Source: Spirochaeta africana DSM 8902
Lineage (GTDB): Bacteria > Spirochaetota > Spirochaetia > DSM-27196 > DSM-8902
Assembly (NCBI RefSeq): GCF_000242595.2
Contig: NC_017098.1
Location: 3,244,202-3,285,855, forward strand
DNA: 41,654 nt
Direction of reading: 5' to 3'
Both the position numbers and the translations under genes were made by a program. The notes beneath the pieces were generated by a model. It worked only from the letters and a program-made list of their open reading frames with translations, ran no database searches and was not told where the DNA came from. Positions 6,406 through 18,884 of the stretch are shown here, in pieces. Numbering within the stretch: position 1 is the stretch's first letter; every line of letters starts with the position of its first letter.

Positions 6406-7785
6406 ATGCGTACCGCCCACCGCACGCCGCTGCTGCCTGTCGTGCTGTTGCTGCTGATCAGCGCCAGCCTGACCGCACTGCCGGCACCCTCGGAGCTGGA
6501 CATCGACACCGCCGTTGAGCTGGCCCTGGCCAACAACCTGGGCATCCGCTCGCATCGAATCGATGCACAGATTGCCGAGCGCAACTACCAGCATCGCTTT
6601 AACGTGCTGTATCCACAGATTTCCGCACAGGGAACCCTGGCACGGCCAAACGCCGAACCGGAGGACCCCTTTGCCGGCCTGATGGAACAGCTGGGCTTCC
6701 CCCCTGTCCCGGACGCAGAGGATCCGCCCCGCTGGAACATGACCGGAACCCTGAGCGCCCAGCTCACCCTGGCGTCCCAGATGATTCACGGGATTCGCGC
6801 CGTAACCGATGCCTACCACAACGCCGAAATCGAGCTTGACGATGCCCGGCGAGAGCTGGAAAAACAGATCCGAACCTCGTTCTATCAGCTGCTGCTGCAG
6901 CAGGAGCAGCTGGACTTGTCAGAGCGTCGCCTGGCCGCAACCCGGGCCCGACTTGAGGAGGTACAGCAGAACTATGAGGCCGGTCTGGTCGATGAGCTTA
7001 CCCTGCGACGAACCCAGGTAGCCCTGGAGAACCAGCGTCCGGGGTTGTTGCGCCAGCGCCAGGGCTATGCTACAGCCAAGCACAGCCTGGCCGCTGCACT
7101 GGGCGTTGACAGCCTGGAGAACACCACCATTACCGGCTCGATTGAGCAGGCCTCGCTGGAGCTGGCAGATGAATCTGCCCTGCTCCAGCTGATTGACCGC
7201 AATCCCGATATCCAGGCTGCCCGGCGCGGAATCCAGGGGATGGAAACCCGGATCGACCTGACCCGCGCCGAGATGCTGCCAACCCTGACCTTTGCGTTTT
7301 CGCTGAATCCCGGCCTGTCCGGCGACCCGTTCTCCAGCGATCCCTTTGATACCGACAACTGGAGCGATCGCGGCAGCTTCTCGATGACCCTGCGACAACC
7401 GCTTGATCCCCTGCTGCCGGGTTCCAGCACACGACAGAATCTTGCCAACCAGCGGGATGAGCTGCAGCAGGCACACCTGCGGGTAGAACAGGCCCGCAGC
7501 GGCGTTGCCCTGCAGACCCGCCGCCTGCTCGGAGAGATTACTGCAGCGCGCGAGACCATCGAATCGCTGCAGGCAAATGTGGCACTGGCTGAACGTGCCT
7601 TCGAGCTGGCAGAGGAAGCGTATCAAAGCGGGCTGCGGGACTTCTCGGTTGTCCGCGATGCGGAGATAGATCTTGGCGATGCCCGTCTACAGCTGCTGCA
7701 GGAGCAGCACCGCTCTATCGAGCTGCTGCTGGAACTGGAATACCTGCTTAACACCCCACATGAAACCATGAAGGAGATAAACTGA
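6406..7785 (+). CDS. TolC-family outer-membrane efflux protein
   Basis: This is probably the outer-membrane channel of the tripartite pump encoded by the next genes. From ATG 6406 the 459-residue protein begins with a clear signal peptide (RTAHRT, then a Leu-rich core and ASLTALP). Two repeated helical halves follow, of the TolC type: AVELALANNLGIRSHRIDAQIAE near the N-terminus and a matching DLTRAEMLPTLTFAF region mid-protein, with long amphipathic helices rich in Gln, Leu and Glu. The Shine-Dalgarno AAGGAGA (6394-6400) supports 6406. An in-frame ATG at 6373 overlaps the regulator stop and would add 11 residues before the signal peptide. It ends just ahead of the adaptor gene. Confidence 0.9.
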   Translation: MRTAHRTPLLPVVLLLLISASLTALPAPSELDIDTAVELALANNLGIRSHRIDAQIAERNYQHRFNVLYPQISAQGTLARPNAEPEDPFAGLMEQLGFPPVPDAEDPPRWNMTGTLSAQLTLASQMIHGIRAVTDAYHNAEIELDDARRELEKQIRTSFYQLLLQQEQLDLSERRLAATRARLEEVQQNYEAGLVDELTLRRTQVALENQRPGLLRQRQGYATAKHSLAAALGVDSLENTTITGSIEQASLELADESALLQLIDRNPDIQAARRGIQGMETRIDLTRAEMLPTLTFAFSLNPGLSGDPFSSDPFDTDNWSDRGSFSMTLRQPLDPLLPGSSTRQNLANQRDELQQAHLRVEQARSGVALQTRRLLGEITAARETIESLQANVALAERAFELAEEAYQSGLRDFSVVRDAEIDLGDARLQLLQEQHRSIELLLELEYLLNTPHETMKEIN

Positions 7786-7786
7786 T

Positions 7787-8704
7787 ATGAAACACCCTAA
7801 CCTGCCCGTTCAGGGGCTGATTCCCATGCTGACCCTGCTGTCGGTACTGTTGCTGGCATCCTGCAGCCCGGAAAACGGCGATGACGCGCTCACCGGTGCC
7901 GATCAGGAAGACGAACTCACCATATCGGTCACCGTACGCGAGCTGGAACCGCAGCTGATCCGCAATTACATCGATGTGAATGCGGAGATCCAGCCGGTCA
8001 CCAGTGTTGATGTTTTTGCCGACACCGCCGGCGAACTGACCAGACTGACCGTATCCAAAGGAGACCGCGTCAGCCGCACCGATGTAATCGGGGAGGTTGA
8101 TCCCTCACGCGCCGGGCAGCGCTTTGCACCCAGCCCGATCCGCGCCCCGATCAGCGGCACCGTAGTTATGGTGGCACCGCGGGTTGGCTCCCAGATCTCG
8201 CCGCAGACCCCGGTGGCCCGCATCGCCACCACCGACGAGCTGGAGATAACCACCCACATATCGGATCGCCATCTCGGACGGCTGCGCAGCGGCACTCGAG
8301 CACTGGTAAAACTCGATGCCTTCCCCGGCGAGGAATTTCCCGCCCGGATTACCCGGCTGAGCCCGGTGGTAGATCCTCAGAGCCGCACCGCCGAAACAAT
8401 CCTGCGTTTTGATCGCACCGACCGGCGGATTCGCCCCGGCATGTTCGCGCGGCTGCAGATTATCCTGGAGGAACGGCCGGACAGCCTGGCAGTTCCGCAA
8501 ACCGCGATTGTTCGCCGCGACGGGCGCACCATGGTGTACATAATCGACGAAGATTCCCGGGCTGCACGACGCGAGGTAGAACTCGGTATCCAGATTGATG
8601 GCCAGGCCGAACTGCGCAGCGGTGTTCAGCCAGGCGATCGCGTGATTACCCGGGGGCAGAACCTGGTGGAAGCCGGAACCCGTGTCCGGATCCTGGAGGA
8701 TTAG
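7787..8704 (+). CDS. RND efflux periplasmic adaptor (HlyD/MFP family), lipoprotein
   Basis: This membrane-fusion protein should link the RND pump to the TolC-like channel. A lipoprotein signal ends in the lipobox LLASC with Cys26 as the lipidation site. The lipoyl/barrel-sandwich part is visible in VDVFADTAGELTRLTVSKGDRV (about residues 75-97) and its second half PIRAPISGTVVMVAPRVGSQI. It is followed by the beta-barrel segment VDPQSRTAETILRFD and the C-terminal VQPGDRVITRGQNLVEAGTRV. At 305 residues it is short for the family and seems to lack a long alpha-hairpin, as expected for simpler adaptors. It begins 1 base after the tolC-like stop and is followed by the pump gene after 4 bases. Confidence 0.93.
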   Translation: MKHPNLPVQGLIPMLTLLSVLLLASCSPENGDDALTGADQEDELTISVTVRELEPQLIRNYIDVNAEIQPVTSVDVFADTAGELTRLTVSKGDRVSRTDVIGEVDPSRAGQRFAPSPIRAPISGTVVMVAPRVGSQISPQTPVARIATTDELEITTHISDRHLGRLRSGTRALVKLDAFPGEEFPARITRLSPVVDPQSRTAETILRFDRTDRRIRPGMFARLQIILEERPDSLAVPQTAIVRRDGRTMVYIIDEDSRAARREVELGIQIDGQAELRSGVQPGDRVITRGQNLVEAGTRVRILED

Positions 8705-8708
8705 CTGA

Positions 8709-11700
8709 ATGCTCGTAAAAACCATTGTAAACCGACCAACAACCTTTTTTGTTATCTTTGCCTTGCTGGCCGCCTTCGGCCTGTACACCCTGTCGGACAT
8801 TTCGGTCGACCTCTTCCCCGAGATCGATCCGCCGGTACTGGTGGTGTTCACCAACTACGAAGGGGCCGACCCGCAGGAGGTGGAGCGCTCGGTAACCCGC
8901 CCGCTGGAGTCGCTGCTGAGCAATGTCTCGAACGTAAGCCGACTGAGTTCTACCACCAGCCAGGGGAACAGTCAGATCATTATGGAGTTTACCTGGGGCA
9001 CCAACATGGACGAGGCCAGCAACGAGATCCGCGACCGTCTCGACATGGCCCGGGGCATGATGCCGGACGATGCCGGGACCCCCGGGATCTTCAAGTTTGA
9101 CCCATCCCTGATCCCGATTATGGAGCTGCGGCTGATGGGCAACCGCTCCACCGATGAGCTGCGCGAGCTTGCCCTGGACAGTGTACAGCCGCGCCTTGAA
9201 CAGATCGACGGGGTTGCCCAGGCCGGGGTAATGGGTGGACGTGACCGGGTAATCAGGGTCGACATTCCCCGCAGCCGAATGGACGCCTACGGCCTGACAT
9301 TCAATCAGGTGTCCCAGGCGCTGCGCAGCCAGAACATCGACATGGGGGCTGGCACCCTGACAGAGGGAGAGCTCAACTATGTAATCCGCACCGCCGGTGA
9401 ATTCCGCTCGCTGCAGGATATCGAGCGAACCGTGGTTACCCAGCGCAACGGACAGACCATCCGGCTGGGAGACCTGGGTACCGTCAGCGAGGGCTACCGG
9501 CGTGAATCCAGCCTGGTCTACATCAATGGCGAGCCCAGCATCTACATCGCGGTGCAAAAGCAGAGCGATGCCAACTCGGTGCAGGCCGCTGACAACGTGC
9601 TGGCCCAGCTCGACCGCATAAACAGCGAACTGCCCGCCGGGGTCGAGCTCTCGGTTATCTTCGACACCACCCAGCTGATACGGGACTCCCTGGAGACCGT
9701 TACCAACCAGGCCCTGCTGGGGGCAGTGCTGGCAGTCATAATCCTGTTCTTCTTTCTCCGCAGCGTAAAATCAACCCTGGTTGTGGCGATCTCGATTCCG
9801 GTCTCGATCATTGTAACCCTGATGATCATGTTCTTTGCCGGGCTGACCCTGAATCTGATGACCCTTGCCGGCCTGGCCCTTGGGGTAGGCCTGCTGGTGG
9901 ATAACTCGATTGTTATCCTGGAGAATATCTATCGCTACCGGGAAAAAGGCGCCAAGCTGCGTCCCTCGGCCATCCTCGGCAGCCAGGAGATGATCAATGC
10001 GATCATCGCCGCAACCCTGACCACCATCTCGGTGTTCCTGCCACTGGCGATCTTTCGTGCCCAGCTCGAGGTTGCCGGCGAGCTGTTCGCCAGCCTGGCG
10101 TTCACGGTGGTAATATCCCTGATCGCCTCGCTGCTGGTGGCCATCTTCCTGGTTCCGGTCCTGTCCAGCCGGTATTTTCCGCTTACTACCCCGATGCAGA
10201 AACCCCTGAAAGGCGCGGTAAAAAAACTCGATGACGCCATGCAGGCGATGTTTACCGGACTGGATTCGGCCTACAAGGCTGCCCTGCGCCGGGTACTGCG
10301 TCACAAGATCATCACCCTGGTTACCATTACGGTACTGTTCTTTGCCAGTCTGGCCCTGATCGGCTCGATCGGTTTCGAGCTGTTCCCGTCCCAGGAACCG
10401 GACAGCATCGAGCTGAATGTTCGTATGCCGACCGGCACCACCCTCAGTCGTACCGAGGAGGTCATGCGGGATCTTGAGCAGATCATCCGCGGTGAAATCG
10501 AAGGATTCGATGACATCATTCTTAGGGTTGGCTCCAGCGGCATGTTCGGCGGGACCACCGCCCACTCGGGACGTATCTCGATCACCCTGCCGGAGTTTGA
10601 CCAGCGTATTGAGACCGCCGAGGAGATTCGCAGCAGCCTGCGGCCCTACTTTGACCGATTTCCCGGGGTCGAACTGACCTTTGGCGGTGGAGGGATGTTT
10701 GGCGGCGGCGGCGGAATGGGCGGTGGTCGCCCGATTGATATCCGCATTCGCACCGATGATACCCAGCGCGCCCGCGAGGTCGCCAATCAGATAGTGGCAA
10801 TCCTTGATGAACAGGTGGAGGGTGCCGTCGATCCGGAACTGAATATAAGTGACGGCCTGCCACAGGTGGATGTGGTGATCGATCGCGAGCGCGCCTACGC
10901 CCTGGGGCTGAACATTGCCACCATCGGTCAGGAGGTTCGTGCCAACATCGACGGCATCTCTGCTTCCCGCTACCGCACCGGCGGCAGTGAGTACGACATT
11001 GTTCTGATGCTCGATGAGGCAGATCGCACCCAGGTGCCGGATCTGGACCGGATTTTTGTAGCCAACGCAGCCGGCACCCGCATCCCGCTGTCCAGTTTTG
11101 CCTCGTACGAACGAACCACCGGGCCAGTTACCATCAACCGTGAATCCCAGGCCCGGCAGATCCGGGTCCAGGCCGACCTGGCGCCAGGTTTTCAGGTTGC
11201 CCAGGTAGAACCCGAGATCCGCCAGCTGGTTGCCCAGCAGGTTCCCCTGGACGATGGCGTAGTCGTGCTGTTTGAGGGGGAGTTTGCCGACCTGCAGCGC
11301 TATGGCCGGGTATTTATCTCCATCATCATCGTGGCAATCATGCTGGTGTTCGGGGTTATGGCGGCCCAGTTCGAGTCGTTTGTAGACCCGTTCATTATTT
11401 TCTTTACCATCCCCCTCACCCTGATCGGGGTAATCCTGATTCACTTTGCAATGGGGGTAAACCTGAGCCTGTTCACGGCAGTCGGATTTGTAATGCTGGT
11501 GGGAATTGTCGTTAATAACGGTATCGTACTGGTTGATTACACCAATCTGCTGCGAAAACGCGGGCTACCCCTTACCGAAGCCTGTGTAGAAGCCGGCGGC
11601 AACCGACTGCGCCCCATTCTTATGACAAACCTGACCACCATCCTTGGTCTGGTGCCGGTCTCCTTTCTGGAAGGTGAAGGAACCGAACTCATCCAGCCGA

Positions 11701-11885
11701 TCGGGCTTACCGTTATCGGCGGACTCTCGGCCAGTGCCCTGCTGACACTGTTCTTTGTTCCGGTGATCTATGCAGTCTTTAATCGCATCACCGAGAAACG
11801 TGCAGCACGTCGCGAGGCCCGGTTGGAACGGCGCTTCGAGCATCATCTCGAGGCTGATCTGAGCTTCCCCAAGGAGGAAAACTGA
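8709..11885 (+). CDS. RND-family efflux pump, AcrB/SwrC-like
   Basis: This inner-membrane proton-driven exporter has 1058 residues, normal for the family. It shows the N-terminal TM1 (LVKTIVNRPTTFFVIFALLA), the FPEIDPPVL loop, the TM4 motif GLALGVGLLVDNSIVILENI, the second half starting near residue 530, and the TM10 motif GIVVNNGIVLVDYTN. Against AcrB, D407 is kept (here D398), D408 is Asn (N399) and K940 is Asn (N936), a pattern I also associate with SwrC-like and Bacteroidetes RND pumps. A Gly/Met-rich stretch at about residues 656-677 interrupts the second periplasmic region. GGAGGA lies 8 bases before the ATG. Its TGA overlaps the next ATG (TGATG). The substrate is unknown; drugs, lipids or bile-like compounds are all possible. 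Confidence 0.95.
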   Translation: MLVKTIVNRPTTFFVIFALLAAFGLYTLSDISVDLFPEIDPPVLVVFTNYEGADPQEVERSVTRPLESLLSNVSNVSRLSSTTSQGNSQIIMEFTWGTNMDEASNEIRDRLDMARGMMPDDAGTPGIFKFDPSLIPIMELRLMGNRSTDELRELALDSVQPRLEQIDGVAQAGVMGGRDRVIRVDIPRSRMDAYGLTFNQVSQALRSQNIDMGAGTLTEGELNYVIRTAGEFRSLQDIERTVVTQRNGQTIRLGDLGTVSEGYRRESSLVYINGEPSIYIAVQKQSDANSVQAADNVLAQLDRINSELPAGVELSVIFDTTQLIRDSLETVTNQALLGAVLAVIILFFFLRSVKSTLVVAISIPVSIIVTLMIMFFAGLTLNLMTLAGLALGVGLLVDNSIVILENIYRYREKGAKLRPSAILGSQEMINAIIAATLTTISVFLPLAIFRAQLEVAGELFASLAFTVVISLIASLLVAIFLVPVLSSRYFPLTTPMQKPLKGAVKKLDDAMQAMFTGLDSAYKAALRRVLRHKIITLVTITVLFFASLALIGSIGFELFPSQEPDSIELNVRMPTGTTLSRTEEVMRDLEQIIRGEIEGFDDIILRVGSSGMFGGTTAHSGRISITLPEFDQRIETAEEIRSSLRPYFDRFPGVELTFGGGGMFGGGGGMGGGRPIDIRIRTDDTQRAREVANQIVAILDEQVEGAVDPELNISDGLPQVDVVIDRERAYALGLNIATIGQEVRANIDGISASRYRTGGSEYDIVLMLDEADRTQVPDLDRIFVANAAGTRIPLSSFASYERTTGPVTINRESQARQIRVQADLAPGFQVAQVEPEIRQLVAQQVPLDDGVVVLFEGEFADLQRYGRVFISIIIVAIMLVFGVMAAQFESFVDPFIIFFTIPLTLIGVILIHFAMGVNLSLFTAVGFVMLVGIVVNNGIVLVDYTNLLRKRGLPLTEACVEAGGNRLRPILMTNLTTILGLVPVSFLEGEGTELIQPIGLTVIGGLSASALLTLFFVPVIYAVFNRITEKRAARREARLERRFEHHLEADLSFPKEEN

Positions 11886-12181
11886 TGCAGCAGCGAATTG
11901 AAATCATCCTGAACCAGGCGGTCGAGGAGGATCTGTTCGACCGCTTCCAGGCCCACAATGTGGGTACCCGCTACACCAAGATAGCCCCAGCCTTTGGCAA
12001 GGGCCGCAGCGGGGAGCGCCATGGCGATCATATCTGGCCCGAAGAGAACCTGGTGCTGATCATGTATTGCTCCACCGAGGAAGGGGAGCGCATAATCCAG
12101 GCTGCCCGCGAGGTAAAACAGCTCTTTCCCAATGAAGGAATCAAGCTGTACACCATGCCGGCAGAAAATATCCAGCTGTAG
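11885..12181 (+). CDS. Small PII-like protein translationally coupled to the RND pump
   Basis: This 98-residue soluble protein begins QQRIEIILNQAVEEDLFDRF and ends VKQLFPNEGIKLYTMPAENI. The strand-helix-strand pattern resembles the PII superfamily, and it appears to belong to the small transporter-associated proteins found next to RND pumps (the NCBI-style name is PG0541 family; recalled, not searched). The start codon overlaps the pump stop by 1 base, and a full AAGGAGG lies 7 bases upstream, inside the pump gene. A role in sensing or regulating pump activity is inferred. The central GKGRSGERHGDHIWPEEN replaces the long T-loop of true PII proteins. A terminator follows. Confidence 0.82.
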   Translation: MQQRIEIILNQAVEEDLFDRFQAHNVGTRYTKIAPAFGKGRSGERHGDHIWPEENLVLIMYCSTEEGERIIQAAREVKQLFPNEGIKLYTMPAENIQL

Positions 12182-12211: not shown

Positions 12212-12256
12212 CTGCCAGTCACCCGCACTCCGGGTGATTGGCAGTTGCATTTTTTC
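12212..12256 (+). terminator. Rho-independent terminator of the efflux operon
   Basis: The 14-bp stem CTGCCAGTCACCCG (12212-12225) pairs with CGGGTGATTGGCAG (12231-12244), with one G-U pair and a 5-base loop. The sequence TTGCATTTTTT follows. The T-rich tail also holds the -35 box of the next promoter. Confidence 0.82.
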
Positions 12257-12309: not shown

Positions 12310-12840
12310 ATGGGAACATATCTTGATCAGGTACCGGAGAAGATTCAGGATCATATCCGGGATATCGCGGCGACCTCGGGGCTGCCGCAAGGCGAGGAGG
12401 CCGTCGAGGCCATTGCGCAGGGCTGGCTGCAGAAGCAGGAGCTGTTTGCCGAGAAGACCGCCGAGCTGGACATGGAATCAGTCGATGATATCCTGCCGGA
12501 TTTCGAGCGCGGCGCGCTGCTGCTGACCTACTCAGGATCGCTGCTGACTGTAGGGCCACTGGTCGGCGATGGCCGCTGGGTTGAGTACACCAGCATCGGC
12601 CTGCGCCATGATGTGCCCGATTCGGCCGAGTCCCAGGATACCGGGATCAATCAGGCTATCCTGCTGGATGAGCCGGCAAGCTTTACCAGGGGACCGATTC
12701 AGCAGAGCTCACCGATCTACCGGATCGCTATCCATCGGGAACACCTTGACCCCGAGGAAGAGCAGCAGCGTCTGAGCTCCGCAACCCAGATAATCTCTGA
12801 AGGGTTTGCGGATGTTAACAAGACCCTGACACTGGAGTAA
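12310..12840 (+). CDS. Hypothetical cytoplasmic protein heading the kinase/FHA operon
   Basis: I do not recognise this family. The 176-residue acidic protein has no signal peptide or membrane segment. An N-terminal helical part (YLDQVPEKIQDHIRDIA, then QGWLQKQELFAEKTAELD) is followed by a beta-rich core (GALLLTYSGSLLTVGPLV, VEYTSIGLRHDVP) and a C-terminal helix. GAGGAGA lies 7 bases before ATG 12310, and this start fits better than the upstream in-frame codon at 12238, which lies inside the terminator. It ends with TAA directly in frame with the next coding region. Its place ahead of a phosphatase and a Ser/Thr kinase suggests a signalling role, but this is inference. Confidence 0.82.
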   Translation: MGTYLDQVPEKIQDHIRDIAATSGLPQGEEAVEAIAQGWLQKQELFAEKTAELDMESVDDILPDFERGALLLTYSGSLLTVGPLVGDGRWVEYTSIGLRHDVPDSAESQDTGINQAILLDEPASFTRGPIQQSSPIYRIAIHREHLDPEEEQQRLSSATQIISEGFADVNKTLTLE

Positions 12841-12846
12841 GGCCTT

Positions 12847-13863
12847 ATCGATCCTGCACAGCTGCTGGAGGTTCTTGATGAAATTCTCCGGCACGACCAG
12901 CCCCCCGATGCAGCTGGCGTGCTGGAATTTCTGCGGCCAGGACTCGAGGTGCTGCAAACCGAGCCGGACTACCAGCGTCCGCGCGATCAGCACGGCTTGC
13001 CCGGCGGGCTGGTACGTCTAAGCCCGGTACGCACCACGGTAATCATTCCCGATATTCACGCCCGCATGGAGATTGTCCGGCGCGTACTGGACATTCCGCT
13101 TGCCCTGAGCCCGGATACCGACACCACCACGCCATTACTGACAGCGCTGCAGCAAGGACGCGCCCAACTCGTATGTGTGGGTGATTACGTCCACGCCGAG
13201 CAGCGAGCTGCGGAGCGGTGGCGTCTGGCAATGCAGGAGTTTCTGGAAGGATTTACCAGGCATACCGCTATGGACGACGAGATGCGTGAAAGCCTGGGAA
13301 CCCTGCAGATGCTGGCCGCGATAAAAACCGCCCTGCCCGAAGCCGTGCATCTGTTAAAAGGAAATCACGAGAACATCCGCAACCGCGAAGGAAACGGCAA
13401 TCATTCCTTCGGCAAATTTGCCTACGAGGGGCAGATGGTAGCCGACTATATGGAGCAGTTCTATCCGCCCGAGGTTATCGAAACCATTGACCAGTTCGAG
13501 CAGAACCTGCCGCTGCTGGCAATAGGCGGCAGCTTCCTGGTAAGCCACGCCGAGCCGAGCCGCTTTTTCATGCCTGCCGAGATCCGTGATTATCGGGAGA
13601 ACGGTGAGGTGACCGAAGGCCTTACATGGACCGCCAATGGCGATGCCGAGGACGGCAGCGTAGCCGCCATGCTGGACAGCTATATCAGCAGCGATCCTGG
13701 CCTGAGCTCCTATTATTTTGCCGGGCACCGCCCGGTAAACGGCCGTTACGGCACCCGCGCCGACGGTCGTCTTATCCAGCTGCACAATCCCGCCAGCGGG
13801 ATAGCTGCAGTCATCAACCCCGATCAGCAATTTGACCCGGACCAGGATATTCTGGTGATATAA
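12847..13863 (+). CDS. Metallophosphoesterase of PPP-phosphatase type
   Basis: This probable metal-dependent phosphatase could reverse the work of the kinase encoded next. The motifs in order are VIIPDIHAR (D-x-H), LVCVGDYVHAE (GD), LKGNHENI (GNHE), FLVSHAEPS (His) and YYFAGHRPVNGRY (His). These are the PPP/calcineurin metal-site motifs, though the usual GDxVDRG reads GDYVHAE. The start is uncertain. The first canonical codon is GTG 12919, but the frame is open and coding-like from just after the TAA at 12838-12840 (IDPAQLLEVLDEILRHD). GGAG and AAGG lie 9 and 4 bases before ATC 12847. I give 12847 as the apparent left limit; initiation at ATC, CTG 12862/12865 or GTG 12919 cannot be decided here. 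A small-molecule phosphatase is an alternative role. Confidence 0.82.
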   Translation: MDPAQLLEVLDEILRHDQPPDAAGVLEFLRPGLEVLQTEPDYQRPRDQHGLPGGLVRLSPVRTTVIIPDIHARMEIVRRVLDIPLALSPDTDTTTPLLTALQQGRAQLVCVGDYVHAEQRAAERWRLAMQEFLEGFTRHTAMDDEMRESLGTLQMLAAIKTALPEAVHLLKGNHENIRNREGNGNHSFGKFAYEGQMVADYMEQFYPPEVIETIDQFEQNLPLLAIGGSFLVSHAEPSRFFMPAEIRDYRENGEVTEGLTWTANGDAEDGSVAAMLDSYISSDPGLSSYYFAGHRPVNGRYGTRADGRLIQLHNPASGIAAVINPDQQFDPDQDILVI

Positions 13864-13881
13864 CCCGCAGAAGGAACACCA

Positions 13882-15828
13882 ATGGCAGCAATTCCCGAAA
13901 GAATCGGAAAATACAAGATAATCTCCCAGCTGGCAACCGGCGGAATGGGCGCTGTCTACAAGGCTCAGCATCCAACCCTGCAGCAGGAACTGGTCATAAA
14001 AAAGCTCACCATGCTGGACAGCAGTCACGTGCGGGAGCGCTTTCGCCGTGAAGCCCAGATAATGTTCAATTTTAAAAGCGACTACATCGTGGATGTGTAT
14101 GACCATTTTCGTGAAGGCAAGGCCTACCATATCGTCCAGGAGTACATCGACGGCATCAGCCTGGAGGATCTGATAGAGCGGGAACGCTACCTGCCGGAAC
14201 ACATCGCCCTGCGGATTATGCTGTATGCAGCCCGCGCCCTGAAGTATGCGCATTCCCGCAATGTAGTTCACCGCGACATAAAGCCGGGCAACATCCTGAT
14301 CAGTCGACGTGGTACCGTAAAACTGGTGGACTTTGGCATCGCCTCGATCCGGGATCGCATCAACGACGAGGACCTGACCCAGATCGGTATGACCCTGGGA
14401 ACCCCCTCCTACATGGCTCCCGAACAGTTCACCAGCTCGCGGGATGTCGATAAGCGCGCCGATATCTACTCCCTCGGGGTTATGCTGTACGAAATGCTTA
14501 CCGGGAAGAAGCCGTTTCCCGGCACCAAACTGCCGGAAACCTATCAGCGCATCATCAAAGGCAAGTACCGTAATCCGCGCCGTATCAATCCGAACATCTC
14601 GCGTTTTTCGCTGCGGCTGCTCAAAAAAACCATGCAGCCGAAGCTGCGCCGCCGCTATCGGGATATGCAGCAGGTGATTCGCCGCCTTGAACGCCACCTT
14701 CGCATCAAACCGGTTATCGGGGTGCCGTTCGAGTCTGCCGACATGCTGGCCGACTTCGTCGCTGGCAAGCGCACCTGGCCACGCAACGCCCGGGTGCGCA
14801 TCGGCCAGGCCGCCGGAATTGCCGCCGCAGCACTGCTGCTGATCTGGGGCAGCAGCGGGATCCTTCGCCTGGGGTACCATCAGCGCCTGCTGCAGCCCGG
14901 GCTGTACGGTTCGGTATCGCTGCAGTTGCAGTCCGCCATGGACCCACAGGAGCTCTCACGCCTGCCGATAGACGCACGCCTGACATCGGAGCAATTCCCG
15001 GCGTTACAGTATGATCTGCCCCTGCGCCGGCCACTCCGCAACCTGGCGCCGATACAGCAGCTGCCCCCGCTGCTGCGTCCCGATGCCCTGCCAAACAGCC
15101 TGGTTACCCTGCCCCGGTACATTCGCAGTGGCCGCTATCGCCTTGAGCTGCAGGTAGGCAGTCAGCAGTATCACCAGCTGGTCTATGTGCATGCACGGGA
15201 ACGCCAGTTTCCTGAACCGCGCCGCCAGAACCAGAACCATTTCGTAATTGAGCATGCCAGTCCGGCACCACGCCCGCTGCGTATTTCTTCGGTCATCCGT
15301 GATCAGTTGTCGGGGACCAATATCACCCCACTGGCCAGGGTGGAAGCCCTCCATGGCGGCCGGTTTCAGTCGGTTGAGAGCCTGACAGCAAATCAGCAGC
15401 TTTTAAGCGGAGAAGAGATCCATTTTCGCATCAGCCGTGCCGGCTACTACTCACAGGAGCTGCAGGTATCCAGTCGCCCCGGCGAAACCGAGCTGGAGCT
15501 TCGCTCGGCGCTGGTGCCCCGCAGCGGTCAGATTACCATTGCTACCACAGATTCGCGTACCAGCCTGCGCATCAATAACAGCCGGAGTTATATCCAGGGC
15601 GGCATGAATCCTCGCGATATGCGCATTCCCCCGCTCGATCCCGATCAGCCAATTACCCTGCAGCTGCCCCCTGGCCGCTACACCCTGCAGTCAGTTCGAG
15701 GTTTTCGCCAGGGAAACGAACTCGGGATTAACCTGACCTCCGATCAGCACCGATACTTTCTTATAGAGTTTCTCTCAGACGAAGATATATTTACCCTTTC
15801 GGAAATCCAAGAAGGAGAATTACCATGA
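13882..15828 (+). CDS. Transmembrane Ser/Thr protein kinase (Hanks type, PknB-like)
   Basis: A full cytoplasmic kinase domain fills about residues 10-280: the glycine loop LATGGMGAVYKA, an ATP-site Lys in ELVIKKL (about K40), the helix-C Glu in RFRREAQIM, HRDIKPGN with catalytic D132, DFG with D150, and GTPSYMAPEQ. One membrane segment follows at about 312-334 (AAGIAAAALLLIWGSSGIL). The remaining roughly 310 residues are outside the cytoplasm and beta-rich; the end (GQITIATTDSRTSLRIN to LPPGRYTLQSVRGF) looks like a PEGA-type domain, and no PASTA repeats are present. It is preceded by a phosphoesterase and overlaps the FHA protein by ATGA, so kinase, phosphatase and phospho-reader are co-translated. 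The signal sensed is unknown; a cell-wall or osmotic cue is possible. Confidence 0.94.
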   Translation: MAAIPERIGKYKIISQLATGGMGAVYKAQHPTLQQELVIKKLTMLDSSHVRERFRREAQIMFNFKSDYIVDVYDHFREGKAYHIVQEYIDGISLEDLIERERYLPEHIALRIMLYAARALKYAHSRNVVHRDIKPGNILISRRGTVKLVDFGIASIRDRINDEDLTQIGMTLGTPSYMAPEQFTSSRDVDKRADIYSLGVMLYEMLTGKKPFPGTKLPETYQRIIKGKYRNPRRINPNISRFSLRLLKKTMQPKLRRRYRDMQQVIRRLERHLRIKPVIGVPFESADMLADFVAGKRTWPRNARVRIGQAAGIAAAALLLIWGSSGILRLGYHQRLLQPGLYGSVSLQLQSAMDPQELSRLPIDARLTSEQFPALQYDLPLRRPLRNLAPIQQLPPLLRPDALPNSLVTLPRYIRSGRYRLELQVGSQQYHQLVYVHARERQFPEPRRQNQNHFVIEHASPAPRPLRISSVIRDQLSGTNITPLARVEALHGGRFQSVESLTANQQLLSGEEIHFRISRAGYYSQELQVSSRPGETELELRSALVPRSGQITIATTDSRTSLRINNSRSYIQGGMNPRDMRIPPLDPDQPITLQLPPGRYTLQSVRGFRQGNELGINLTSDQHRYFLIEFLSDEDIFTLSEIQEGELP

Positions 15829-16715
15829 CCATGTTCTTCCGACGCATCATAATTGCGGTGCTCGGCCTGCTCGGCGGGCTGGCCGCCTGGCCGGCAATGC
15901 AGCTGCTGCTCTCCCGGCAGACATCATTCCCCAGCTTCCTGCTGTTCAGCCTGATCAGCGGGGCACTGCTCGGACTGCTGTTCGGCGCCTTCTTCTCCTC
16001 CGCGGCCGGCATCATAGCCCGACGCCTGGATCGCCTGTTTATCGGCATGGGGATCGGGGCTCTGCTTGGCACCATTGGCGGTGCCTTCGGCTTTCTGGTA
16101 GCCCAACGCGTGTTCCTGTTCTTTGGCGAGCGCCTGGCGCTGGCAGACGGCAGCCTGCGCACCATCGGCCTGCCGGTCTCGCGCGCCCTCGGGTGGGCTG
16201 TGCTGGGTACCTGTATCGGTACGGTTGAGGGCATCCGGGTCCACAGCTGGCGCAAGATGGTCACCGGTATCGTAGGCGGATTTCTTGGCGGTATTGTCGG
16301 CGGTGCTGTACTTGAACTCCTGGCAACCCTGTTCCCGTCGTCCGGGATAGCCTCCCTGGCCGGGTTGATACTGCTCGGGATTGCGATCGGCCTGGCCTAC
16401 TCAATCGTGGAGCGCCGCATGTCCTACGGGGTACTGCGTATCCTGAATGGCCCACACAAAGGCAAGGAGTTTATCCTGAACCAGAATCGCATCCTGATTG
16501 GCAGCGGAAAGCGCTGCGAGGTCCTGCTCAGTGACTACGACAAGGTTGAGCCGGTGCACGCCGTGCTGCGAGCAAAGAACCGTGAGCTCACCCTGTCATC
16601 TGACCTGGCCGGCGAGCAGCTCATCGTAAACGACACCCAGGTCGAGGAACGACTGTTAAAGTACGAAGATGTCCTTAAAATCGGCACAGCCAAGCTGCTG
16701 TACAAGCAGGAATAG
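15825..16715 (+). CDS. Polytopic membrane protein with C-terminal FHA domain
   Basis: The 296-residue protein has about six Gly-rich membrane segments in residues 5-198 (for example IIIAVLGLLGGLAAWPAMQL and MVTGIVGGFLGGIVGGAVLE). A cytoplasmic FHA domain follows from about 205 (LRILNGPHKGKEFILNQNRI, LIGSGKRCEVLL, VEPVHAVLRAKN). FHA domains bind phosphothreonine, so it is the likely reader of the kinase encoded immediately upstream. Its ATG overlaps the kinase TGA, and the Shine-Dalgarno AAGGAG is inside the kinase gene. The glycine-zipper helices suggest an oligomer or channel-like assembly; this is inference. The usual FHA His is present (PVHAVL), while the usual GRxxxxC motif reads IGSGKRCE. 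Confidence 0.88.
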   Translation: MTMFFRRIIIAVLGLLGGLAAWPAMQLLLSRQTSFPSFLLFSLISGALLGLLFGAFFSSAAGIIARRLDRLFIGMGIGALLGTIGGAFGFLVAQRVFLFFGERLALADGSLRTIGLPVSRALGWAVLGTCIGTVEGIRVHSWRKMVTGIVGGFLGGIVGGAVLELLATLFPSSGIASLAGLILLGIAIGLAYSIVERRMSYGVLRILNGPHKGKEFILNQNRILIGSGKRCEVLLSDYDKVEPVHAVLRAKNRELTLSSDLAGEQLIVNDTQVEERLLKYEDVLKIGTAKLLYKQE

Positions 16716-16728
16716 AAAGGAGGCTGCC

Positions 16729-18231
16729 ATGCGAAAACGAATCCACACAACCCCCCTACTGATTGCCCTGGTACTGCTGCTCATCCTGCCGACCGGTATC
16801 CTGAGTGCAGATCAGGTATCGATTACCCAGGTAAACCCAGGACGGCTGCTTACCCGCCAGTCGGTCGAACTCTATCTGAGTATTCTTGATGAAAACAACA
16901 TCCCCGTCGACGGGCTTGGCTCCCAGGACTTCGAGCTGTTTGAATCCGAGGACGGAGAAAACTTTATTCCGGTACCGATTACCGATTTTTCGGCACATGC
17001 CATGCAAGAGACCGGGGTAAACTATTTCCTGTTGATAGATAATTCCGGCAGCATGTACGAAACAATGGAAGGGGAAATTACCGACAACCCGGCAGAAATG
17101 AGAATCACCTATGCCAAACAGGCATTGAGAATCTTTCTGCAGTCGGTCGATGATCGTCGTGATCGGGTTCAACTTGCCTCATTCAATACCCGCTTTCATC
17201 TGCATTCCGAGATGACCCATGACACCCAGGAACTGCTGAGCGCTGTTGATCGTATCGAGCGACCCGAGCCGGGTACCGGGGAGGGGTGGACCGAGAACTA
17301 CTATGCCATAAAAACGGCGACATCATATCTCGATCGTTTGCCGGGCCGAAACGTATTGATCATGCTCTCCGACGGCGAGAATTTCCCGTATATGGTTGGT
17401 TCCGGCGATCCGCATCCCGAGTTTGGCGAGCGCATCTACACCCTTGAGGAAAGCATCGAGGCCCTGCAGTACACCGGTATCAGTCTGCATGCAATACGAC
17501 TTGGCGATGATCTGGATGTAAGTCTCGAGGATCTGACTGCCGCCTCCGGTGGTCGCCTCTTCGATACCGTTAACCCGGACGAGCTTGCCACCATCTATCA
17601 GCAAATCCGCGATCAGGTCCTGCGTGAGTATCGTGTCCAGTATCGCGCCGCCATGATTCCATCCGAGCGCCGCATTGTCCAGGTGCGCTACACCGGTGGG
17701 ACAACACCGGCTACCGCTGAACGCACCTATTTTGCCGGCACCCTCTTCGGTATGCCCGGTCAACCTCATCCGGCAGCCCTGATCGTTCCGCTGCTGCTGG
17801 CAATTGCCGGCCTGATAGCCCTGACCCGTATAAGCTTTGTCAATCGTCGCACCACTGCCAACCTGGAGATAATCGACGGCAGCAGCATGACCAAGGTAAT
17901 GCCGATCACCCAGAACAAGACCGTTATCGGTTCTGCCGATGCCGACGACGTTACCCTGGTGAACTCCCCGGGGGCGCGACCGAGTCATGCGACCGTGATC
18001 TATGATCCCGATGATAAAAGCTACAACCTGGAAAGCGAGGATCCGGTAAAGGTAAACAACCAGAAGACCACCCGCCGCAAGCTCGAGCCAGGCGATGTAA
18101 TCAATGTCGGCGGAACCATGGTGGTATTCGATGAGCCGGAACACCCCGACCTGTCGCTGGATACCGACAGCCGCCTCGAACCTGATTTTGGCGATTTCCC
18201 CGATATGGATGAGCCGGAGGACAAGTCGTGA
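16729..18231 (+). CDS. Exported vWA-domain protein with C-terminal membrane anchor and FHA domain
   Basis: From ATG 16729 (AAAGGAGG upstream) the 500-residue protein has a signal peptide (LLIALVLLLILPTGILSA), a short beta domain, and a von Willebrand A domain with MIDAS motif LLIDNSGSM at about D104. A membrane segment follows at about 348-370 (ALIVPLLLAIAGLIALT), then a cytoplasmic FHA-like domain (TVIGSADADDVTLVNSPGARPSHATVIYD, shown by its key GSADADD and PSHA parts). The vWA part would lie in the periplasm and bind a partner through a metal ion, while the FHA part reads a phosphorylated protein inside. It could therefore carry the kinase signal across the membrane. The next gene overlaps by GTGA. 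Confidence 0.9.
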   Translation: MRKRIHTTPLLIALVLLLILPTGILSADQVSITQVNPGRLLTRQSVELYLSILDENNIPVDGLGSQDFELFESEDGENFIPVPITDFSAHAMQETGVNYFLLIDNSGSMYETMEGEITDNPAEMRITYAKQALRIFLQSVDDRRDRVQLASFNTRFHLHSEMTHDTQELLSAVDRIERPEPGTGEGWTENYYAIKTATSYLDRLPGRNVLIMLSDGENFPYMVGSGDPHPEFGERIYTLEESIEALQYTGISLHAIRLGDDLDVSLEDLTAASGGRLFDTVNPDELATIYQQIRDQVLREYRVQYRAAMIPSERRIVQVRYTGGTTPATAERTYFAGTLFGMPGQPHPAALIVPLLLAIAGLIALTRISFVNRRTTANLEIIDGSSMTKVMPITQNKTVIGSADADDVTLVNSPGARPSHATVIYDPDDKSYNLESEDPVKVNNQKTTRRKLEPGDVINVGGTMVVFDEPEHPDLSLDTDSRLEPDFGDFPDMDEPEDKS

Positions 18232-18884
18232 ATCCGCTGCTGCTGTTGATACCGCTGGCACTCGCCGTACCAGCGGTGGTTACCGGTCACCTGCGCACCC
18301 GTGGCAGGGAATACCTGAAGGTTTCGGTAACCCTGTCATTGCTGGTGATTGTTGTACTGCACGGGCAGCAGGTCGGCTGGACGCCCATAGCGGCGCCCTT
18401 TGCGGCTTCACTGCTGTGTGCAGCCGTCGCCGATTACCTGCTGTCGACCCAGCGGAAGGAATGGTATTTTCTGGCCGGGCTGGCAGGATTTCTGGTAGCG
18501 TATGCCATCTACGGGATCGTGCTGCATCGGCTGGCCGGGCTTACACCTGCAGCCGCTGTACTGGCCGCGTTCGCAGCCGCAGCACTCATCCTGCAGTATC
18601 GCACCATGCGCAAACTGCCGCCCGAAATGAAGCTCCCGGTTCTGGTCTATATGCTGGTGGTATCCCACCTGGTGGTGGCGGCTGGGGGGTTGATGAGCGT
18701 ACTGCTGACGACCCGCCCCCTGATCGGCTTTCTGGCAGTCTTTGCAGCCGCCAACATCTATGCCTCGGACAGTTTTATCGCCCACAACATCTTTCGCGCG
18801 CCGCTGAAGCACGACGAGCTGTGGATCCTGCCCACGTACTACGCAGCCCAGATAGCCATGACCGCGGTACTGCTGCTATGGTAG
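18228..18884 (+). CDS. YhhN/TMEM86-family membrane protein (possible lysoplasmalogenase)
   Basis: The 218-residue protein consists almost wholly of membrane helices, about eight. The pattern AAVADYLLSTQRKEWYFLAGLAGFL, here shown by ADYLL and YFLAGLAGFLVAYAIY, with LPVLVYMLVVSHLV and a late ASDSFIAHNIF, matches the YhhN family. Eukaryotic members cleave the vinyl-ether bond of lysoplasmalogens, so a lipid role is plausible; some anaerobic spirochaetes contain plasmalogens. It starts with GTG overlapping the vWA gene stop. It is the last gene of the signalling operon and convergent with aspS, 40 bases away. Confidence 0.82.
   Translation: MNPLLLLIPLALAVPAVVTGHLRTRGREYLKVSVTLSLLVIVVLHGQQVGWTPIAAPFAASLLCAAVADYLLSTQRKEWYFLAGLAGFLVAYAIYGIVLHRLAGLTPAAAVLAAFAAAALILQYRTMRKLPPEMKLPVLVYMLVVSHLVVAAGGLMSVLLTTRPLIGFLAVFAAANIYASDSFIAHNIFRAPLKHDELWILPTYYAAQIAMTAVLLLW

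Follow-up and report, generated by a model that had tools for sequence, protein, structure and literature searches.

A kinase, FHA, and vWA operon conserved across free-living spirochaetes, with a possible link to an HU-type DNA-binding protein

We analyzed a window of 41,654 nucleotides from Spirochaeta africana DSM 8902 (NC_017098.1, positions 3,244,202 to 3,285,855), which is the terminal part of a 3.29-Mb single-contig genome. At 12310-18884 of this window, on the + strand, six open reading frames (ORFs) run in the same direction: g1, the phosphatase g2, the Ser/Thr kinase g3, the FHA membrane protein g4, the vWA protein g5, and a YhhN-family protein (Table 1). Gene neighborhoods indicate that this operon represents a signalling cassette that occurs in many copies and is conserved across free-living spirochaetes. 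The comparisons support well that g1, the kinase, g4, and g5, with g2 in many lineages, are one co-inherited unit, and that this system also includes g1-HU, a protein in which the g1 domain is followed by a DNA-binding domain of the HU/IHF-like type. To judge from the sequences, this could be a dedicated trans-envelope signalling operon of spirochaetes, in which the kinase connects the envelope to g1 and g1-HU; we consider this close to an even call.

First, the gene order recurs. A phosphatase profile drew 254 relatives from GTDB genomes, and we kept 79 loci, nearly all of them from spirochaetes. In named genomes, 50 loci were fully visible, with room on both sides of the operon, and 37 of these have the five-gene core g1-(g2)-kinase-g4-g5 in that order (the count includes locus L100, where g1, located within a long open frame, escaped the position filter of our script). 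In the host's taxonomic order, this arrangement is present wherever the contig is long enough, and it recurs in eight families. Nine loci, from Treponema and its relatives, keep the phosphatase and the kinase alone. An initial annotation of this DNA had read the genes as one kinase, phosphatase, FHA, and vWA system and had named a lack of conserved gene order in other spirochaetes as grounds for abandoning that idea. The order is conserved across the phylum, more than chance would give, and it supports the idea well.

Second, g1 and g4 occur together. Across 46 genomes of the host's order, g4 homologues are present in 32; both genes are present in 32, neither in 11, g1 only in 3, and g4 only in 0 (P = 2.7e-8, which overstates the independent evidence as the genomes are related). 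Two of the three genomes with g1 only are incomplete assemblies, and the third has a fragmentary g1 match. In a draw of 393 genomes from the phylum, 53 had a match to g4, of which about 36 were full length; a first scan of GTDB, using a single g4 protein as the query, gave no match. Besides the g1 family (including g1-HU), no real gene family was seen to recur around the operon across lineages: the other clusters of neighbors were short, on the opposite strand to the core genes, or present in just two or three loci, and we read them as shadow ORFs or chance neighbors. Two rows of our tree come from metagenome-assembled genomes labeled 'Neomarinimicrobiota' (L089) and 'Deferribacteres' (L075). 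Because both branch among the spirochaete rows, mis-binning or transfer is likely.

Third, many relatives carry a g1-HU gene, usually divergent from the operon's g1 and sharing an intergenic region with it. All 13 tested members of this divergent family of g1 paralogues matched PF00216 (HU/IHF), with 57.6 bits for the first member against a cut-off of 22.4. Their C-terminal domain is a full HU/IHF-like match; it differs from HU and IHF in its fusion to a g1 domain and its association with a kinase operon. By match counts per genome, and with unlinked copies included, about 30 of the 35 genomes of the host's order that carry g1 also have a second g1 match of the g1-HU type; the 11 genomes lacking g1 have none. 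In S. africana, g1-HU is unlinked to the operon (L064:1141-2022(-), 293 amino acids; we called it HU-type by eye from its sequence), which is why the initial gene set missed this partner.

The domain shared by g1 and g1-HU is, by our searches, previously undescribed. Searches of Pfam, NCBIfam, and PADLOC gave no family for g1, and no sequence in the PDB matched it. Its AlphaFold model (pLDDT 91.5) combines about eight strands with helices at the N terminus and one long helix at the C terminus. No solved structure in the PDB matched this fold with confidence (Foldseek best E 0.022, TM-score 0.16; VIA-align best Z 3.9, root-mean-square deviation [rmsd] 3.7 over 83 residues), nor did any model in BFVD. 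Taken together, these results speak against g1 being a known domain; the module offers a domain without a recognized fold. We found no plasmid-borne homologue of g1. Its loop T73-Y-S-G-S and S134 are invariant in the alignment and may be phosphosites.

The catalytic or metal-site residues of the kinase, the phosphatase, and the vWA domain are intact. The kinase g3 (PF00069, 183 bits) has the features of a Hanks-type kinase (VAIK Lys, HRD, DFG, activation loop, and an APE-type motif), and Lys40, HRD 130-132, DFG 150-152, the activation-loop Thr, and the PE motif are conserved in its relatives. It is the only clear Hanks-type kinase that we found in the S. africana genome (a second match to PF00069 was partial, at 36.9 bits), so most Ser/Thr signalling in this bacterium may pass through the operon. 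Hanks-type kinases are reportedly lacking in Treponema pallidum and Borrelia burgdorferi (PMC1262709). The match of g3 to the PknB/PASTA model NF033483 (248 bits, under the cut-off of 450) covers the kinase domain alone, and none of 24 g3 homologues matched PASTA repeats. We also considered a PEGA-type outer domain and rejected it, as just 1 of the 24 homologues matched PF08308 (E 0.005).

The phosphatase g2 (PF00149, Metallophos, 26 bits) has the PPP signature of GDxH, GDxx, GNHE, and two distal His, with His118 in place of the usual second Asp of GDxxD. Its metal ligands D71, H73, D115, N175, H176, H236, and H296 (numbered from 12841) are invariant in the aligned sequences, and its profile matched PP1/PP5-type chains in the PDB weakly (best E 0.0018). 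In g5, the vWA domain (PF13519, 45 bits) has a complete metal-ion-dependent adhesion site (DNSGS, T188, and SDG), with D104, S106, S108, T188, and D215 invariant in 20 sequences.

g4 has several hydrophobic helices and an FHA domain (PF16697, 82 bits; PF00498, 22.6 bits), and its model (pLDDT 91) places six helices before a C-terminal FHA fold, in line with the six-helix membrane FHA protein of the initial annotation. The FHA-like end of g5 was assigned solely from its matches to PF16697 (33.7 bits) and PF00498 (19.4 bits). According to the initial annotation, the kinase would phosphorylate threonines that are read by the FHA domains of g4 and g5, the phosphatase would reset them, and the vWA domain would pass the signal outward. 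The kinase, the phosphatase, and the FHA folds do share one operon, and in some relatives a canonical small FHA protein is encoded beside the operon or, in treponemes, upstream of the phosphatase-kinase pair. However, the phosphothreonine (pThr)-binding residues (GR...SxxH) are missing from g4 and g5 of S. africana and from nearly all of their relatives: the Arg is present in 6 of 53 g4 and 2 of 52 g5 relatives, and the Ser in 5 of 53 and 4 of 52. Whole-genome searches of S. africana with PF00498 and with a profile of canonical small FHA proteins found no canonical FHA protein either, so we rejected a pThr reader elsewhere in the genome, and we consider the proposed relay improbable. The operon also shows that proximity to a kinase does not by itself make an FHA domain a pThr reader.

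Two families of FHA proteins suggest what else these domains could do. The closest solved structures to the FHA domain of g4 are from the GarA/OdhI group of Actinobacteria (GarA 6i2r, Z 18.2, rmsd 1.2 over 94 residues; also 4qcj, Z 17.5), with ArnA and YscD further off. Unphosphorylated GarA and OdhI bind metabolic enzymes. Both are small and soluble and carry a phosphorylated tail, whereas g4 is a six-helix membrane protein without a pThr site. The other family is SctD/YscD/PrgH of type III secretion, which are also membrane proteins with a degenerate FHA domain; PF16697, the SctD/YscD cytoplasmic domain, is the best Pfam model for g4. However, the FHA domain of SctD is N-terminal and precedes one transmembrane helix, while that of g4 is C-terminal and follows six; g4 scores 32.9 bits against the SctD family model TIGR02500, under its cut-off of 86; and no type III secretion genes recur next to g4. 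PrgH requires its degenerate FHA domain, yet that domain was judged unlikely to bind pThr (PMC3635987).

g4 and g5 are encoded by a single ORF in 11 of the 76 tree rows. Well-supported branches force a minimum of three changes on the tree, which could mean three gains, or a single gain with two losses. As the fusions lie at three separate positions in the tree, they are good evidence that g4 and g5 would work as one complex, and these natural fusions should be useful for mapping it. Hydropathy suggests that the signal peptide of g5 becomes an inner helix in the fusions; their topology is consistent with both FHA domains being cytoplasmic and the vWA domain being outside.

Beyond the comparative evidence (for co-inheritance, the g4-g5 complex, and the membership of g1-HU) and the sequence evidence (for intact enzymes and metal site and for degenerate FHA domains), we infer how these parts could act. 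On the periplasmic side, an envelope ligand or partner would be bound by the vWA domain of g5, via its metal site, and by the outer domain of the kinase. g4 and g5 would together make up a membrane scaffold, and its two FHA-fold domains in the cytoplasm would retain partners without requiring pThr, as in GarA/OdhI or SctD. The engaged kinase would phosphorylate g1, the g1 domain of g1-HU, or both, which would alter DNA binding or transcription, and the PPP phosphatase, where present, would reset the mark. We favor this inward direction because the sole plausible outputs, g1 and g1-HU, are cytoplasmic; transfer through the vWA domain to the periplasm, as first proposed, seems less likely. The full scheme, a one-operon pathway from the envelope to the chromosome with a transmembrane kinase, a phosphate-independent FHA scaffold, gating by the vWA metal site, and control of an HU protein through g1, is one that we put forward tentatively. 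The module would make a clean test of a bacterial kinase acting on an HU-type nucleoid protein.

Several observations weigh against such a pathway. g1 has no known homologue that could lend it a function. The outer domain of the kinase varies in length and sequence among relatives, which argues against one universal ligand. g1-HU seems not to be obligatory or is often unlinked, since about 5 of the 35 g1-bearing genomes of the host's order lack it and it was not seen beside 16 of the 36 complete operons. Similarly, the phosphatase appears dispensable: of the 32 genomes of that order with g4, many of which are drafts, 16 gave no g2.

We also considered whether g1, instead of being an output, might serve the kinase as a regulatory subunit or act as its inhibitor, and whether g1-HU might autoregulate the operon and titrate or sense the kinase complex. 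The position of g1 as the first gene, next to the kinase pair, would fit a subunit, and the intergenic region that g1 usually has in common with g1-HU would fit autoregulation. However, g1-HU is retained when it is unlinked, for which autoregulation of a neighbor alone is insufficient; as to g1, the present data do not separate a subunit from a substrate. This explanation seems unlikely to us but far from negligible.

A literature search with thin coverage of subscription journals found no published description of the operon. The claim in the initial annotation that no described system has this gene set thus held in the literature searched, but close functional analogues exist. The operon resembles the Arn network of Sulfolobus acidocaldarius, which has the same four types of protein: ArnA (FHA), ArnB (vWA), the kinases ArnC and ArnD, and a PP2A-type (PPP) phosphatase (PMC7472852, PMC6509490). 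There, the FHA protein ArnA and the vWA protein ArnB form a complex, and the g4-g5 fusions suggest the same for the spirochaete proteins. However, ArnA and ArnB are soluble and cytoplasmic, while the spirochaete FHA and vWA domains are on membrane proteins and the vWA domain is periplasmic, and g1 and g1-HU have no Arn counterpart. FHA domains of the ArnA class recognize phospho-motifs; the missing pThr residues of g4 and g5 argue against an Arn-type reading of phosphosites on the vWA protein.

The operon also resembles PpkA-PppA-Fha1, which controls the H1 type VI secretion system (H1-T6SS) of Pseudomonas aeruginosa. PppA is of the PP2C type, whereas the phosphatase here is of the PPP type. 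In both cases, a kinase, a phosphatase, FHA, and vWA are found in one locus; in PpkA, the vWA domain is C-terminal of the kinase domain (PMC3224232, PMC1262709), and phosphorylation by PpkA is part of how Fha1 works (PMC3224232). This precedent (PMC3224232), together with the SctD/YscD model being the best one for g4, raises the possibility of an envelope secretion or assembly machine, with g4 and g5 as its inner-membrane platform and the kinase and phosphatase controlling assembly. However, no secretion ATPase, sheath, secretin, T6SS gene, or other structural gene was seen to recur around the spirochaete operon, and the T6SS pathway has neither g1 nor HU and differs in its topology and its reading of phosphate. 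We regard such a machine as very unlikely. An anti-phage defence cassette with the kinase as effector would be harder still to believe: the kinase domain matches the PADLOC models for the PD-T4-6 and Mad6 kinases, but these matches span the generic kinase domain only; g1, g2, g4, and g5 have no PADLOC match; and the gene order is retained over many lineages of one phylum, unlike most defence cassettes.

Returning to the phosphatase, g2 probably starts at a non-canonical ATC codon at 12847, not at GTG 12919. Its homologues extend upstream to this point, and the context GGAG[TAA]GGCCTT-ATC has the same spacing as GGAG[TAA]GACCCG-GTG in L045 and L049, where the gene starts with GTG. Another possibility, that ribosomes are programmed to read through the in-frame TAA at the g1-g2 junction, was rejected in favor of the near-cognate ATC start, since the aligned position is a GTG after identical GGAG-TAA spacing in L045 and L049 and since many relatives have the two genes in different frames. 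The gap between g1 and g2 is 6 bases with the ATC start and 78 with the GTG start, so the initial description of gaps of no more than about 20 bases holds with the former and fails with the latter. As the start codon is weak and coupled to g1, the phosphatase may be kept scarce. In the host's order, the kinase and g4 genes of these loci have ordinary start codons. Across the relatives, the homologous start of g2, directly after GGAG at the end of g1, is repeatedly neither ATG, GTG, nor TTG: it appears as ATC in S. africana (12834-12849), L033 (5130-5142), and L068, as ATA in L032 (4605-4621), and as CTG in L080, L081, and L105.

In treponemes and their relatives, a small GarA-like FHA protein is encoded directly upstream of the phosphatase-kinase pair in seven of nine treponeme-type loci (Table 1). 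It has a Thr-bearing N-terminal tail and an intact pThr site, with T12, R55, S69, H72, and N91 invariant in the alignment. GarA has been described as unique to Actinobacteria (PMC12321487). Small proteins of this kind are also encoded near some full operons. A second kind of small FHA protein, encoded near the operon in the loci given in Table 1, has an intact pThr site as well (VTIGR...SRKHxQIVFRG...DLGSLNKT). Because canonical FHA proteins adjoin the phosphatase-kinase pair or the operon in these lineages, a pThr relay may hold there in part.

Table 1. Features of the S. africana operon (window coordinates) and small FHA genes in loci of other spirochaetes (locus coordinates)
Feature	Coordinates	Strand	Description
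Terminator-like hairpin and T tail	12212-12251 (hairpin 12212-12244)	+	14-pair stem, 9 GC; upstream boundary of the operon
g1	12310-12840	+	176-amino-acid soluble protein; conserved domain without a Pfam or NCBIfam family
GGAG	12834-12837	+	Probable Shine-Dalgarno sequence of the phosphatase, within the final g1 codons
g2	12847-13863	+	PPP/calcineurin-like phosphatase; probably starts at ATC 12847, with GTG 12919 as the earliest canonical start
g3	13882-15828	+	Ser/Thr kinase; kinase domain at residues 11-260, one transmembrane helix at ~310-330, beta-rich outer part of ~320 amino acids
g4	15825-16715	+	Six-helix Gly-rich membrane domain and cytoplasmic FHA-fold domain (residues 201-295)
g5	16729-18231	+	Signal peptide, periplasmic vWA, one transmembrane helix at ~348-366 (hydropathy), cytoplasmic degenerate FHA
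YhhN-family membrane protein	18228-18884	+	PF07947, 88 bits; probable passenger
Small GarA-like FHA	L133:9630-9971, L121:9524-9865, L129:9594-9935, L136:5165-5506		
Small GarA-like FHA	L142:9615-9956, L145:9553-9897, L118:9580-9918		
Second kind of small FHA	L081:8963-9331, L105:8908-9270, L090:8963-9352, L123:8817-9221		

The ORF map and the Pfam and NCBIfam matches bear out the six co-directional ORFs and the domains first given to them. Of the three overlapping junctions that had been claimed, two do overlap, kinase/g4 (ATGA, 15825-15828) and g5/YhhN (GTGA, 18228-18231), while g4 and g5 are separated by 13 bases. The YhhN gene had been counted as part of the system, but it adjoins the operon in S. 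africana only. As none of the relative loci that we searched for YhhN had a match, it is probably a passenger from outside the system. Just upstream, at 8709-12181, are an RND-type transporter and a PG0541-family PII-like protein (81 bits); the terminator-like hairpin, which stands between the end of the PII-like gene at 12181 and g1, divides both from the operon. Two relatives have additional genes of these types: L088 has a second phosphatase-kinase pair (7133-10014) beside a full operon, and L137 has an additional ORF (8787-10028) with a divergent kinase domain followed by an FHA-like domain.

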